From positions 310,001 through 374,000 of the forward strand of contig JANQAE010000004.1 in the NCBI GenBank assembly GCA_024707225.1: DNA of 64,000 bases. The letters run 5' to 3'. Made by a program: the position numbers and the translations under genes. Positions 30,068-49,905 of this stretch are shown piece after piece. Positions within the stretch are counted from its first letter, which is position 1; each line of letters starts with the position of its first letter. The notes beneath the pieces are model-generated. The model had not been told where the DNA came from. It worked only from the letters and a program-made list of their open reading frames with translations, and did no database searches. The DNA comes from Dokdonella sp. GTDB taxonomy: Bacteria; Pseudomonadota; Gammaproteobacteria; Xanthomonadales; Rhodanobacteraceae.

Positions 30068-30476
30068 GTCGTCTGGCTCCTTGGCGCGATAGGGGATGTC
30101 GCACGAGGGAGGACGGGACGCGCCCGCGATTGCGATCAGACGCGCAGCGATTGCACCGGTCGCGGCACGCGCCTCGCGTCGATCGCGGTTGCGCGATCGC
30201 GCAGCGGCCGCTCATCGCGGCGCACACGGTGCAGGCACGCGCAAGCGGCAGGTGGCGATCGTCGCGACATCGCTGCGGAGCGGTGCCGCGCCGTCGATCC
30301 TGGCGCGTGCCCGACGGGGCGAAGTGCGCGTCGCGCCTTCGGCACGCGCCGCGAACGACCCGCGGCGCGGTGGCCTCGGCCTGGCGGCGCGTCGTCGAGG
30401 TCGCGCTCCGATCGCGGCAGTGGGAAGCGCGCCGGCGCCGGCGCCGGCACGATCGCGCATGCCGGACATCACCGCT
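30068..30476. other. Upstream region between divergent secreted-protein gene and the aroG leader
   Basis: This stretch of about 410 bases is very GC-rich, with open but compositionally biased frames in several phases. I see no gene I can support. It should contain the promoter of the minus-strand secreted protein near its 30067 end. Confidence 0.4.
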
Positions 30477-30504
30477 TTGCAGCCGGCCGCGGGCGTGGTA
30501 TCAA
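30477..30504 (+). promoter_or_regulatory. Candidate sigma-70 promoter of the aroG leader
   Basis: TTGCAG (30477-30482) and TATCAA (30499-30504) are separated by 16 bases. This would start transcription around 30511, almost at the leader-peptide ATG (30513), so the leader would be nearly leaderless, or the real promoter is further upstream. The match is moderate only. Confidence 0.35.
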
Positions 30505-30512
30505 TGGCCGCC

Positions 30513-30596
30513 ATGCAGACGCGCAACGCCATCGCCTTCTTTTGGTATTACGCCTTTCCGATGCCACCGGCGGAGGAAGGAGCGCGTTCGACCTGA
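30513..30596 (+). CDS. Aromatic-amino-acid-rich leader peptide of the DAHP synthase gene
   Basis: This 27-residue ORF, also open from an ATG at 30504 (three more residues), carries the run FFWYYAF at residues 9-15. It therefore has three Phe, one Trp and two Tyr codons in a seven-codon stretch, the amino acids made from the pathway that the next gene opens. Its TGA is 24 bases before a strong intrinsic terminator, and aroG begins 36 bases beyond that. This is the standard layout of ribosome-mediated attenuation, as in the pheA and trp leaders. When charged aromatic tRNAs are scarce the ribosome would stall in the run and prevent terminator formation. There is no clear Shine-Dalgarno sequence before either ATG, which is the weakest point. 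Confidence 0.8.
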   Translation: MQTRNAIAFFWYYAFPMPPAEEGARST

Positions 30597-30620
30597 GGAT
30601 TTCCCCAGAACGCATCCCGA

Positions 30621-30649
30621 AAGCCGCCAGCGAACCTGGCGGCTTTTTT
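30621..30649 (+). terminator. Attenuator terminator before aroG
   Basis: AAGCCGCCAG (30621-30630) pairs perfectly with CTGGCGGCTT (30636-30645) around CGAAC. A run of six T (30644-30649) overlaps the stem end and continues past it. It is the best canonical intrinsic terminator on the plus strand of the window, and it lies upstream of a gene, not after one. A GGCGG segment inside the leader-peptide region (about 30568-30573) could pair with the CCGCC of the terminator's left arm as an antiterminator. The pairing model is inference. Confidence 0.85.
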
Positions 30650-30685
30650 GTTGCCCGCTTTTCCGCCGCTCCCCGAGAGATCCCG

Positions 30686-31756
30686 ATGGCACCGCAGACC
30701 GACGACCTCCGCATTCAATCGATACGACCGCTGCTGACACCGGCGACGCTGCTGGACGAGCTGCCGTGCGACGCCGCCGCATCGGCCACCGTGACCGGCG
30801 GACGCGCCGCGCTGCACGCGATCCTCGGCGGCCGCGACGATCGGCTCGCCGTCGTGATCGGTCCGTGCTCGATCCACGACCCCGATGCCGCCCTCGACTA
30901 CGCGAGCCGGCTGCGGCCGCTGCGCGAGACGCTCGGCGACGCGCTGGAGATCGTCATGCGTGTCTACTTCGAGAAGCCGCGCACCACGATCGGCTGGAAG
31001 GGCCTGATCAACGATCCGGATCTGGACGGCCGTTTCGACATCAACAAGGGCCTGCGCATCGCGCGCGGCCTGCTGCGCGAGATCAACCGGATCGGCCTGC
31101 CGACCGGCGTGGAGTTTCTCGACGTGATCTCGCCGCAGTACCTGGCCGATCTGGTCGCCTGGGGCGCGATCGGCGCGCGCACGACCGAGAGCCAGGTCCA
31201 TCGCGAGCTCGCCTCGGGCCTGTCTTGCCCGGTCGGCTTCAAGAACGGCACCGACGGCGACGTCAAGATCGCGGTCGATGCGGTCAGCGCGGCCGCGCAT
31301 CCGCATCATTTCCTGTCGGTCACCAAGCAGGGCCGCAGCGCGATCGTCACGACGCACGGCAACCGCGACTGCCACGTGATCCTGCGCGGCGGCCGCACGC
31401 CGAACTACGATGCGGCCAGCGTCGAGGCTGCGGCCGGCCTGCTGCAGCGTGCCGGCCTGCCGGCTCGGCTGATGATCGATGCCAGCCACGCCAACAGCGG
31501 CAAGGACCCGGACCGGCAGCCGGTCGTGATCGACGAGGTCGCGCGGCAGATCGAGACGGGCCAGACGCGCATCGTCGGCGCGATGATCGAGAGCCACCTG
31601 GTCGGCGGCCGCGAGGATCTCGTCGCCGGCCGCAAGCCGACCTACGGCAGAAGCATCACCGACGGCTGCCTCGGCTGGGCTGCATCGGTGCGCGTGCTCG
31701 AGCGGCTGGCCGCCGCGGTGCGCGAACGGCGCGCGGTGCGCACCCGGGCGGCCTGA
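30686..31756 (+). CDS. aroG: 3-deoxy-7-phosphoheptulonate synthase (DAHP synthase, AroG/F/H type)
   Basis: This is the first enzyme of the shikimate pathway, condensing phosphoenolpyruvate with erythrose 4-phosphate. At 356 residues it is the usual length of class I-alpha enzymes. Motifs: VVIGPCSIHDPDAALDYA, VMRVYFEKPRTTIGWKGLINDPDLDG, GARTTESQVHRELASGLSCPVGFKNGTDG, a metal-binding Cys in IGPCS, His in SHANSGKDP and GAMIESHLVGGRED. AroG, AroF and AroH paralogues differ by feedback inhibitor, which cannot be read off here; the leader with Phe, Trp and Tyr codons suggests response to more than one aromatic amino acid. ATG 30686 follows a GAGAGA Shine-Dalgarno-like sequence. Confidence 0.95.
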   Translation: MAPQTDDLRIQSIRPLLTPATLLDELPCDAAASATVTGGRAALHAILGGRDDRLAVVIGPCSIHDPDAALDYASRLRPLRETLGDALEIVMRVYFEKPRTTIGWKGLINDPDLDGRFDINKGLRIARGLLREINRIGLPTGVEFLDVISPQYLADLVAWGAIGARTTESQVHRELASGLSCPVGFKNGTDGDVKIAVDAVSAAAHPHHFLSVTKQGRSAIVTTHGNRDCHVILRGGRTPNYDAASVEAAAGLLQRAGLPARLMIDASHANSGKDPDRQPVVIDEVARQIETGQTRIVGAMIESHLVGGREDLVAGRKPTYGRSITDGCLGWAASVRVLERLAAAVRERRAVRTRAA

Positions 31757-46906: not shown

Positions 46907-46935
46907 AAAAAAAGACGGCCCCTTTCGGGGCCGTC
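46907..46935 (-). terminator. Intrinsic terminator of the TonB-dependent receptor gene
   Basis: On the minus strand, GACGGCCCC and GGGGCCGTC form a perfect 9-bp stem around GAAA, followed by seven T. It lies 27 bases past the receptor stop codon. This is the clearest factor-independent terminator in the window. Confidence 0.92.
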
Positions 46936-46962
46936 CAAGATTGCAGCGTACAGAGCTTCTTA

Positions 46963-49905
46963 TCAGAAGCGCTGCTGGTACTTCAGGTAGTAGAAGCGAC
47001 CGATGTCGAAGCCGCCGTAGTACGAGAACTGGCTGTTCGGGTTCGAGTACATGAACGGACCGCGATGATCGAACGCGTTGTTCGCACCGACCGAGACCGT
47101 ACCGTTCCACGGGGCCGTCCAGCGGAACTGGAGGTCGTGGAAGGTGTTCGAGCCCGTGCGGTTGACCGGCGACGGCGTGAACACCACCTGGCCGGTCAGA
47201 TCGTTGTACGACGGGTAGCCGTAGTTCGGATCGTTACACTCCGGACCACCGCTGGCCGCGTCATACACGCAGCTTTCCTTCATGCCCGAGTAGTAGCGCA
47301 TGCCCCAGCTCGCGCCGAAGTCGCCCAGGCTCCAGTCCAGCGTCAGGTTCGACTTGGTGCGGAACTGACTGCCCCAGCCGGTGCCGTTGAACGGGATTTC
47401 CGGGGTGCCCGGCTCGGTCTTGCTCTTCCAGTAGGAAACGTACGACGTCTCCCAGGTGACCATGAAGCGACCGAACGAGAACTCCGGCAGGCGGTAACGA
47501 ACGCCGAAGTCGTAGCCTTCGGTTTCGATCCAGCCGAGGTTGCGCGTACCGAAGATCAGGTAGTTGACCGCGCCGGTGACCGGGTCACGCGTGAAGTTCT
47601 GGCAACGGCTGGCGATACCACGCTCGTAGCAGTCCGAGAGGATCGCGCCCGGGCTGTCGCTGCTGACCAGGTTGTCGATCTTGATGCGGTACCAGTCCAG
47701 CGTGATGTCCAGGCCCTGGATGTAGCTCGGGCTGTAGACCGCACCCAGCGTCTTGCTGACCGAGGTCTCCGGCAGCAGGAACGGGTTCGCACCGCCGAGG
47801 AACGGGAAGTTGGTCTGGCACGGGAAGCTCGTGCAGTCCGCACCACCCTGACCCGGCTGGATGAAGCCCGACGGGAGCGCCGGCTGACCGCCGAAGCCGC
47901 CGTAGCAGCGGGTCGCCGTGGCGCCTTCCGGCGGACGGCCACCGACGACCGAGCACGGATCGGTGTAGTAGGCGTAGGTCGAGCTCAGATCGCCGTACAG
48001 GTCACCGATGGTCGGCGCACGGAAGCCTTCCGCGTAGGTACCGCGGATCAGCAGGTCGTCGATCGGCTTCCACTTCAGGCCGAACTTGCCGTTGGTCGTC
48101 TTGCCGAACGTGTTGAAGTCCGAACGACGGCCAGCGACGTTGAACGACAGCTCGCGGAACGCCGGAATGTCCTTGAGCACCGGCACATCGAGCTCGAGGT
48201 AGTATTCCTTGACGTTGTAACCGCCGCCCCGGCCGCCGATGGCGAGCTCGGTGGTCAGGCCGGCCGCGGTCATGCGATCCGGATTGAAGTCGCCTTCCTC
48301 GCGACGGTATTCGTAACCGGCCGCGAACGACAGGTCACCGGCCGGCAGCGTGAACAGAGCGCCGGTCAGGTTGGCCGTGTAGTTGATGGTCTTGGAACCA
48401 CCGGTCGAGGTCGTCGGCGCGATCAGGAAGTCCTGGACGGCCTGGTCACCGAGCGAGTTCTCGAGACCGCTGCCGTACGGTGCCAGCGGGTTCCACGGCA
48501 CGCACTCGTCGAGCGGGATCGGGTTGGTCGCGCTGCCGCACTGGATGATGCCGTCGGCGTTGCGGAACGACGGACCGACCGCAGCCTGCAGATTGGCGAT
48601 GTTGTAGTTGCCGGTGCCGGTACGGACGAAGTCGTTCTTGTTGTAGAAGTAGCCGACGTCCCAGTTCCACGAGTGGTCGCCCACGTCGAACCAGCCTTCG
48701 AAACCGCCGGTGAAGCGGTAGGTGCTGAGCTCGCTCCAGGTCGCACGCGGGACTTCCCAGCCGCGACGCGTCCAGTTGACGCTCTGCGGCGTGGCATAGC
48801 CGTGGTGGCTGCCGAACGGGTTGAAGTAGCTGTCGGCCGACATCGGCGCGGCGACGGCGGCGCTCTGCAGCGGGTAGCCGGCGACGGTGTTCTCGGTCTC
48901 ACGCTTGTTGTACAGCACGTCCGAACGGAACGTGATGTTGTCGGTCAGGTTGAACGTGCCGGCGACGAACACCGAGGTACGCTCCATGCCCGACAGCAGG
49001 TTCATCTGCTGGTTCGAGTTGGCGTAATCGGAATCCCAGCCATCGGTCGTCGGCGTGCGGACGCGACGGAAGTTGGAGAAGTCGTACGGGTCGCCGCTGA
49101 AGCCCGGACCCAGGGTCCAGTTGCCGCCGCCCGGAATGCCGAGCAGGGTGCCCCACTGGCTGACCGGGCTCCAGCCCGCGCCGGGATGACGCGGCTGCGG
49201 CGTCTCGGAGAACCAGCGGTCCTTCGCCCAGACCGGATCTTCCTTCGCGTACGACACGCTCATCGTGACCGAGCTGCGCTCGCCGGTCGAACCGATCGTG
49301 AAGTCGTACTGCTGACGCTCACCGTCGTCCTCGTCGTACTGACCGAGATAGACGTTCATCTCGGCGCCTTCGAAGCGCGAACGCGTGATGATGTTGATGA
49401 CGCCGGCGATGGCGTCCGAACCGTAGACCGACGAGGCGCCATCCTTCAGGATGTCGATGCGCTCGATGATGCCGACCGGGATCGTGGCGATGTCCTGGTA
49501 GCCCTCGGAGTTCGCGCCGAGACGCTTGCCGTTGACGAGGACGAGGGTGCGCTCCGGACCGAGGTCACGCAGGTCGATGTACGAACCGCCCGCGCTCTCG
49601 TTCGCGGCCAGAGCCTGCGAACGGCTGAACGCCGGCGAGCCAGCGGACGTCACGTTCAACAGGATGTCGGCGACCGAGCTGAAGCCCTGCTTCTCGATCT
49701 GGGCGCGGTCGATCGTCAGAACCGGCTGAGCGGTCTCGACGTCGGCCTTGCGGATGCGCGAACCGGTGACGACGATCGTCTCCAGCTTGTCTGCACCGGC
49801 GTCCTGCGCGAACACAGGGCTTCCGGTCAGACCGACCGCAGTCGCCGCACCCGCATACAGTGCGAAGCGAACGGCCTTGAAAAGCTCGTTGCTGTTCAAT
49901 CTCAT
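46963..49905 (-). CDS. TonB-dependent receptor
   Basis: This 980-residue outer-membrane transporter has a signal peptide (MRLNSNELFKAVRFALYAGAATAVGLTGSPVFAQ) and then ETIVVTGSRIRKADVETAQPVL, near the TonB box. The plug domain follows (IEKQGFSSVADILLN, PERTLVLVNGKRLG, IERIDILKDGASSVYGSDAIAGVINIITRS), then a 22-strand barrel ending in aromatic FYYLKYQQRF. Four or more Cys pairs occur in extracellular loops (IQCGSATNPIPLDEC, DCTSFPCQTN). This is the GSRI-type of Xanthomonadales/Lysobacter receptors; the substrate (peptide, sugar or other) cannot be predicted. The ATG at 49905 is preceded by GGAGAGTGACAAA. It is monocistronic, with its own promoter and terminator. Confidence 0.95.
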   Translation of the reverse strand: MRLNSNELFKAVRFALYAGAATAVGLTGSPVFAQDAGADKLETIVVTGSRIRKADVETAQPVLTIDRAQIEKQGFSSVADILLNVTSAGSPAFSRSQALAANESAGGSYIDLRDLGPERTLVLVNGKRLGANSEGYQDIATIPVGIIERIDILKDGASSVYGSDAIAGVINIITRSRFEGAEMNVYLGQYDEDDGERQQYDFTIGSTGERSSVTMSVSYAKEDPVWAKDRWFSETPQPRHPGAGWSPVSQWGTLLGIPGGGNWTLGPGFSGDPYDFSNFRRVRTPTTDGWDSDYANSNQQMNLLSGMERTSVFVAGTFNLTDNITFRSDVLYNKRETENTVAGYPLQSAAVAAPMSADSYFNPFGSHHGYATPQSVNWTRRGWEVPRATWSELSTYRFTGGFEGWFDVGDHSWNWDVGYFYNKNDFVRTGTGNYNIANLQAAVGPSFRNADGIIQCGSATNPIPLDECVPWNPLAPYGSGLENSLGDQAVQDFLIAPTTSTGGSKTINYTANLTGALFTLPAGDLSFAAGYEYRREEGDFNPDRMTAAGLTTELAIGGRGGGYNVKEYYLELDVPVLKDIPAFRELSFNVAGRRSDFNTFGKTTNGKFGLKWKPIDDLLIRGTYAEGFRAPTIGDLYGDLSSTYAYYTDPCSVVGGRPPEGATATRCYGGFGGQPALPSGFIQPGQGGADCTSFPCQTNFPFLGGANPFLLPETSVSKTLGAVYSPSYIQGLDITLDWYRIKIDNLVSSDSPGAILSDCYERGIASRCQNFTRDPVTGAVNYLIFGTRNLGWIETEGYDFGVRYRLPEFSFGRFMVTWETSYVSYWKSKTEPGTPEIPFNGTGWGSQFRTKSNLTLDWSLGDFGASWGMRYYSGMKESCVYDAASGGPECNDPNYGYPSYNDLTGQVVFTPSPVNRTGSNTFHDLQFRWTAPWNGTVSVGANNAFDHRGPFMYSNPNSQFSYYGGFDIGRFYYLKYQQRF

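Follow-up and report, generated by a model that had tools for sequence, protein, structure and literature searches.

In the 64,000-nucleotide stretch of Dokdonella sp. DNA analyzed here (hereafter the window), the gene for class I DAHP synthase, aroG, is preceded by a short leader that, judging from its sequence, is very probably a ribosome-mediated attenuator setting aroG expression according to the supply of aromatic amino acids. The original prediction placed a small open reading frame (ORF) encoding the run FFWYYAF, together with a terminator, just 5′ of aroG, and direct reading of the sequence bears this out: the ORF ends with a TGA at 30594-30596, and 23 nt separate this stop codon from the terminator stem. 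The features of the region are the following.

30499 to 30504, forward strand: −10-like hexamer TATCAA (within TGGTATCAAT), 8 nt upstream of the leader ATG, identified from sequence
30513 to 30596, forward strand: leader peptide ORF MQTRNAIAFFWYYAFPMPPAEEGARST, 27 aa, stop TGA, start chosen by alignment with relatives
30537 to 30557, forward strand: aromatic control codons TTC TTT TGG TAT TAC GCC TTT (F F W Y Y A F)
30552 to 30583, forward strand: 1:2 (protector) hairpin GCCUUUCC...GGAAGGAGC, from minimum-energy folds of the window's leader
30569 to 30573, forward strand: segment 2, the 5′ strand of the antiterminator, GGCGG, within the ORF
30624 to 30628, forward strand: segment 3, CCGCC, common to the antiterminator (with 30569-30573) and the terminator (with 30638-30642)
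30620 to 30649, forward strand: intrinsic terminator, stem AAAGCCGCCAG/CTGGCGGCTTT, loop CGAAC, T tract up to 30649
30686 to 31756, forward strand: aroG, class I DAHP synthase, 356 aa, ATG at 30686 (TIGR00034, PF00793)

The product of the downstream gene scores 510.4 bits against TIGR00034 (cut-off 173.2) and is also matched by PF00793, and its best solved relative is the Phe-regulated DAHP synthase 1gg1. A class II DAHP synthase (G000:C1:19017-20321) is encoded in the same genome beside this class I enzyme; the class II enzyme was found in all 60 genomes searched, and the class I enzyme corresponding to this aroG in 20 of the 60. For trpE of the same genome, the approximately 550 nt before the best TIGR00564 match contain neither an ORF with at least two Trp residues nor a terminator.

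The terminator hairpin (30620-30646) consists of an 8 bp GC-rich core extended by three A-T pairs that draw on the T tract, and its tail holds six T residues (30644-30649). A consensus scanner listed neither terminators nor promoters between 29500 and 32500, and for the terminator we read this as a consequence of the scanner's rule assigning the T's to the stem. The rule by which we called leaders throughout this work, an aromatic ORF plus a terminator upstream of aroG, uses a terminator search of its own that does find the hairpin. Of the 11 terminator-like hairpins that our script recognized in the window, counting both strands, the one before aroG is alone in having an upstream ORF with at least five aromatic residues in a stretch of eight. 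A small protein gene that happened to lie beside aroG with its own ordinary terminator would have the same look, a short ORF followed by a hairpin; the constant position before aroG across many families, together with the spacing and complementarity described below, makes such a coincidence scarcely credible.

Under the attenuation mechanism that we propose, the sensed signals would be the supplies of charged tRNA-Phe, tRNA-Tyr and tRNA-Trp. Transcription would begin at or just before the leader ATG, with the ribosome trailing the polymerase. If one of these tRNAs were short, the ribosome would stall within F-F-W-Y-Y-A-F and cover the 5′ side of the protector hairpin, leaving GGCGG (30569-30573) free to pair with CCGCC (30624-30628), so that the terminator would be blocked and aroG read. 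With all three tRNAs plentiful, the ribosome would continue across GGCGG in the direction of the stop codon and thereby block the antiterminator, and transcription would end at the T tract. Stalling, antitermination and the sufficiency of each amino acid alone (an OR gate) are what we infer from the parts, complementarity, spacing and conservation of the leader, which are themselves observed and are detailed below.

The sequence GGCGG within the ORF repeats the 3′ arm of the terminator and is complementary to its 5′ arm, CCGCC. These exact core words were present in 69 of 77 leaders, and the eight lacking them were dropped from what follows. Before segment 2, aromatic residues occupy 443 of the 988 codons of these 69 leaders; after it they occupy 16 of 692 (423 of 946 and 16 of 663 when only the 66 distinct sequences are counted). 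The spacing between GGCGG and the last aromatic codon ahead of it is 14 nt in 34 leaders, 17 nt in 17, 20 nt in 10 and some other value in 8, such that 61 of the 69 (58 of the 66 distinct) show one of these three spacings. The distance between control codons and segment 2 resembles that of E. coli trpL. The original prediction that this is the architecture of ribosome-mediated attenuation is thus upheld by spacing and folding, which locate the antiterminator where stalling would free segment 2. The region contains an aromatic-rich leader ORF, an intrinsic terminator between this ORF and aroG, and an antiterminator that excludes the terminator and whose 5′ strand lies just past the control codons.

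When the window's leader was folded to minimum energy with no ribosome present, the protector hairpin at 30552-30583 formed and sequestered segment 2; placing a ribosome at the last Phe codon led 30569-30573 to pair with 30624-30628. A simulated ribosome on the last aromatic codon led segment 3 to pair with the leader in 67 of the 69 leaders, and at the last codon evaluated in none of them. This count is register-free; in one fixed register the antiterminator formed at the last aromatic codon in 53 of 69. The folding result is only moderately specific, since shuffled downstream sequences also gave pairing with P>0.5 in 58% of trials. Moreover, segment 3 of the free RNA was mostly unpaired with the leader in just 32 of the 69 leaders, which indicates that the protector hairpin is not uniform. 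The check suggested with the original prediction, folding the leader for a terminator and antiterminator pair, thus gave a largely favorable result with some exceptions: a mutually exclusive pair is present.

Moving the ribosome along the window's leader gave pairing of 0.7-1.0 from the second Phe to the last Phe at edges 13-17, and of ≤0.2 within two codons past the block. At edge 13, codons 1-4 past the ATG gave values of about 0, the Ala and Ile codons that follow gave 0.7, and the subsequent Ala and first Phe gave 0.2. The six codons that begin with the second Phe and end with the last Phe then gave 0.7, 0.9, 1.0, 1.0, 1.0 and 1.0; the codon following the last Phe gave 0.7, and values of ≤0.2 ensued. 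The first Phe gave only 0.1-0.2 at edges 10-15, as did the second Phe at edges 10-12. In this model, the rise at Ala-Ile and the low value at the first Phe do not fit the clean picture.

Substitution patterns among 26 relatives were also examined for the two competing helices. The terminator helix covaries, with 10 cells changed on both sides and none of 500 shuffles scoring as high. The five core pairs of the antiterminator are kept in 24 to 26 of the 26 relatives; beyond this 5-bp core no antiterminator covariation was found in the same relatives, 80.3% of the cells being paired, no better than in shuffles. Two related loci (L138 and L151) carry AGCGG as segment 2 and CCGCT as segment 3, a compensating change. 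A segment swap test was uninformative, as each leader's own segments 2 and 3 paired little better than swapped ones (1733 of 3180 comparisons), which is attributable to a motif that is nearly identical everywhere. Inspection by eye shows further hairpins recurring between segments 2 and 3, at the stop codon of the leader. Such a hairpin nested inside the antiterminator (30574-30623 in the window, and its counterparts in relatives) was considered as an additional element and set aside as too weak against shuffled controls, the mean z over 93 leaders being −0.79 with 8 below −2.

As to where the leader ORF begins, an ATG at 30504 was rejected in favor of that at 30513, since it overlaps the −10-like TATCAA and relatives favor the downstream codon. 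With TATCAA 8 nt before this ATG, the predicted transcription start falls at or very near it. Start sites were compared using 84 of 112 leaders, those outside four groups being left out. Shine-Dalgarno-like 4-mers were found in 0 of 28, 1 of 25, 0 of 17 and 0 of 14 leaders of the four groups. Among the 28 Xanthomonadales-type leaders, 18 have their best −10-like match ending 6-9 nt before the ATG (elsewhere in 3, and none by rule in 7), and the best box lies at the same 6-9 nt in 22 of the 25 rhizobial leaders. The Burkholderia-type leaders have it farther away, 35-39 nt before the ATG in 15 of 17 and within the narrower span of 36-38 nt in 13 of them, and among the 14 Oxalobacter-type leaders it is scattered over 3-39 nt. 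The suggestion of a leaderless start is thus favored by the scarcity of Shine-Dalgarno-like words and by the −10-to-ATG spacing of two groups, but not by the spacing in the other two. For the window's own leader ORF, the combination of a −10-like box near the ATG and no Shine-Dalgarno-like word makes a leaderless start likely.

Turning to conservation, the expectation that an aromatic run would recur upstream of aroG in related genomes, and the opposite outcome that would have spoken against the leader, can be judged from several samples, and the run is conserved. Among the best 80 of 591 confirmed aroG-like stretches, 58 have a leader by the rule, in genera including Bradyrhizobium, Mesorhizobium, Xanthomonas and Burkholderia. 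No leader was called by the rule at the Enterovibrio and Photobacterium loci (L039, L069 and L080), and one locus (L074) had too little upstream DNA for a call. In a Bordetella locus (L006), an ORF and a hairpin that the rule missed are seen by eye. In Candidatus Burkholderia humilis (L024), the frame is shifted within the block and the ORF continues past the terminator, such that this may perhaps be a decaying leader. The 60 nearest genomes, a set that contains the window's own, comprise 20 aroG loci, and all 20 have a leader, 19 by the rule and one (L093) by eye.

An even sample of the phylum gave an aroG match at E 1e-80 in 224 of 398 genomes. The 86 loci inspected comprise 26 given as loci and 60 hand-picked down the ranking, and since several loci starting at contig ends and some others were skipped, this sample leans towards close relatives. 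A leader was called by the rule at 35 of the 86, mostly on an all-or-none basis per family: 10 of 10, 9 of 9, 6 of 6 and 3 of 3 in leader-positive families, with one at 2 of 3. The three largest leader-negative families gave 0 of 21, 0 of 9 and 0 of 7 aroG loci by the rule, from which it follows that the rule seldom calls a leader by chance.

A covariance model built from 26 leaders, the window's among them, had 51 matches in 49 of the 398 phylum genomes, and 45 of these adjoin aroG when compared by eye with the aroG positions. The remaining six (E 1.2e-4 to 9.0e-4) lie away from aroG and have no leader by the rule. Seven matches at aroG belong to one gammaproteobacterial family, in which three leaders were called by the rule and four were recognized on reading, for example FYFYFWFSSPAEER. 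As these four are visible on reading alone, the rule undercounts; true leaders that it missed include these together with L006 and L093. Within the window, the model also matched 46909-47052 on the reverse strand (19.3 bits), which we regard as a false positive, as it comprises the aromatic end of a longer ORF, receptor-like by eye, followed by a terminator. Overall, the run, the antiterminator core and the terminator recur in Xanthomonas-like, Rhodanobacter/Dyella-like and rhizobial bacteria, in Burkholderiales and in this one gammaproteobacterial family.

Gene and leader may also share a history. The window's AroG and leader are both 0.78 identical to those of a Xanthomonas locus (L001), and the two congeneric genomes that have the gene show an AroG identity of 0.68 and leader identities to the window's of 0.58 and 0.56. 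Leader and protein identities correlate over 26 loci (r 0.68, with none of 999 permutations as high). This correlation and the closeness to the Xanthomonas locus fit the view that gene and leader travel together. As a separate observation, 25 contigs of a viral collection (L232-L256) encode DAHP synthase relatives with 41-79% identity over the best segment, and these are perhaps carried metabolic genes or host DNA.

Outside the Proteobacteria, a close aroG was found in 5 of 120 genomes of the Chloroflexota class to which an Anaerolineae record (L050) belongs. At all four loci of this class with upstream DNA (L260, L261, L262 and L264), aroG is preceded by a Phe-Tyr-Trp leader; the hairpin after it differs from that of the window, and in L260 it is without a clear T tract. 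By eye, AGCTTACC (L262) or AGCTTGCC (L264) in the leader can pair with GGTAAGCT or GGCAAGCT in the hairpin, a possible compensating change.

The composition of the aromatic block bears directly on what the leader would sense. The rule yielded 112 pooled leaders, of which 106 are distinct, and the densest 12 residues contain both Phe and Tyr in all 106 and Trp as well in 84; one Trp codon is present in 78, two in 6 and none in 22. The statement that all three aromatic amino acids stand in one block is thus correct for the window and for these 84 leaders, and fails for the 22 without Trp. An alignment of 26 Xanthomonadales-type leaders, a group inferred from named relatives and excluding L084, L088 and L093, shows the Trp codon kept in all 26, the following column as Phe or Tyr in 25 of 25, and a later column as Tyr or Phe in 23 of 26. 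In addition, the Ala codon above segment 2 is GCG in all 26. Phe codons were compared at 86 loci with GC3 >0.75, omitting those without enough aroG; the ratio of TTT to TTC is 191:47 in the leaders and 33:457 in the downstream aroG genes. Slow decoding of the codon and an open RNA are candidate reasons for this inverted preference. Devosia and a Massilia locus (L035) have similar RNA words in a shifted frame. Together, the F/Y swaps, the fixed GCG, the TTT bias and the shifted-frame words suggest that selection keeps the aromatic class of the block and the RNA downstream of it.

These observations can be set against the reading in which the leader does attenuate but effectively senses a single one of the aromatic amino acids (Phe or Tyr being the likeliest), as reported for Corynebacterium aroR, with the other codons providing U-rich openness. 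Phe and Tyr are the residues found in every distinct leader, Trp is absent from the block in 22 of them, and the TTT bias could serve RNA openness, all of which speaks for such a leader. A single sensor would, however, less readily account for the invariant TGG of the Xanthomonadales-type alignment, or for neighboring columns that exchange F and Y as interchangeable sensors would; furthermore, a ribosome at the window's Trp codon gives pairing of 0.7-1.0 at edges 10-17. We regard a single effective signal as possible, though doubtful. We instead lean, with modest conviction, towards one leader acting as an OR gate on three charged tRNAs and governing entry to the shikimate pathway across much of the Proteobacteria.

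The same data weigh on two further explanations. Because block length varies, F and Y are swapped, and no residue of the block is fixed save one Trp, arrest of the ribosome by the nascent peptide with a bound ligand in the manner of TnaC, rather than by a starved codon, appears very unlikely; an aromatic-rich nascent chain could in principle contact the exit tunnel, but ligand-arrest peptides depend on specific residues. A function in trans for the peptide or for the terminated short RNA, besides attenuation or replacing it, also seems unlikely, if less so. Its precedent is S. meliloti, where the RNA and the peptide of a leaderless attenuator (rnTrpL and peTrpL) have trans roles, according to the portion of the report available (PMC7298713), and the C-terminal part of the peptide is indeed partly conserved in the 26 aligned leaders (P in 23, P in 24, A in 26, E in 20, R in 25 and S in 21). 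Yet similar RNA words occur in shifted frames in Devosia and Massilia, and an Ala codon fixed at its third base suggests that it is the RNA that is conserved. Codon-dependent attenuation remains our preferred reading.

With respect to known RNA families, Rfam 15 returned no family at its gathering score in the window. The Phe_leader model (RF01859) reached 21.3 bits (E 0.22) against a gathering score of 55, and Glutamine-II gave a weak match near the leader (16.6 bits versus 33). Trp_leader (RF00513) had no match at gathering score and, with the limit set at E 10, was absent from the 11 matches in 30440-30720. Four leader peptides that were scanned had no NCBIfam or Pfam match. The attenuators of pheA (Phe_leader) and trpE (Trp_leader) have, as here, control codons, 1:2, 2:3 and 3:4 segments and a terminator before the gene; unlike the window's leader, they each respond to one amino acid and precede other genes.

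The closest printed leader peptide that we found, in sources consulted in part, is that of Corynebacterium glutamicum aroR, which likewise combines a short aromatic leader peptide, a DAHP synthase gene (aroF) and transcription attenuation (PMC4046766, PMC11802643). The arrangement in the window is the same, in that a DAHP synthase gene follows a leader ORF containing codons for Phe and Tyr. Compared by description, aroR differs in that it has Phe-Tyr-Phe without Trp and belongs to an actinobacterium, and the accessible part of a review states that it responds to Phe and not to Tyr (PMC4046766, PMC11802643). Predicted attenuators of DAHP synthase genes, like that of the window, are on record for Shewanella aroF and aroH and for Vibrio aroAI-tyrA; in the tables available, Shewanella aroF is entered as 'Attenuator sensing tyr-tRNA' (PMC2659441), and attenuators stand ahead of Vibrio aroAI-tyrA (PMC1173090). 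In contrast to the window, no three-aromatic leader peptide is given for these in the parts of the two papers that we consulted (PMC2659441, PMC1173090).

Leaders that read three related amino acids have a precedent in S. lividans ilvL, where, from the available excerpt, Ile, Val and Leu codons share one leaderless leader (PMC8079986), although branched-chain ilv leaders concern other amino acids and other genes. Similarly, Sinorhizobium meliloti trpL, in an alphaproteobacterium, is described in the extracts at hand as a leaderless attenuator ORF starting at its AUG (PMC10117765, PMC7298713); it differs from the window's leader in sensing Trp only, in preceding trpE(G) and in its reported trans functions. 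The earlier statement that known leaders (pheA, trpE) sense one or two amino acids leaves out ilvL with its codons for three, and with three-amino-acid branched-chain leaders already in print, the novelty lies in the set being aromatic, in the gene that follows and in how widely the arrangement occurs. No three-aromatic leader before a proteobacterial DAHP synthase was found in the open-licence literature as sampled, and an earlier mention elsewhere is possible. As far as that literature shows, the kind of device is known, and the three-aromatic set, its breadth and its gap in the RNA catalogue are new.

In E. coli, as summarized in the part of the source available, the three DAHP synthase isoenzymes are each inhibited by one end product and stand under TyrR and TrpR (PMC5343134). 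Given the recurrence in Chloroflexota, attenuation of DAHP synthase by a three-aromatic leader may be ancient or have evolved repeatedly, as an alternative to control by TyrR and TrpR. The first aromatic step feeds three end products, and one leader that reads all of them would, if the proposal is true, be a compact answer to this situation. Such a leader would also be well suited to studying how several starvation signals are combined by a single ribosome.
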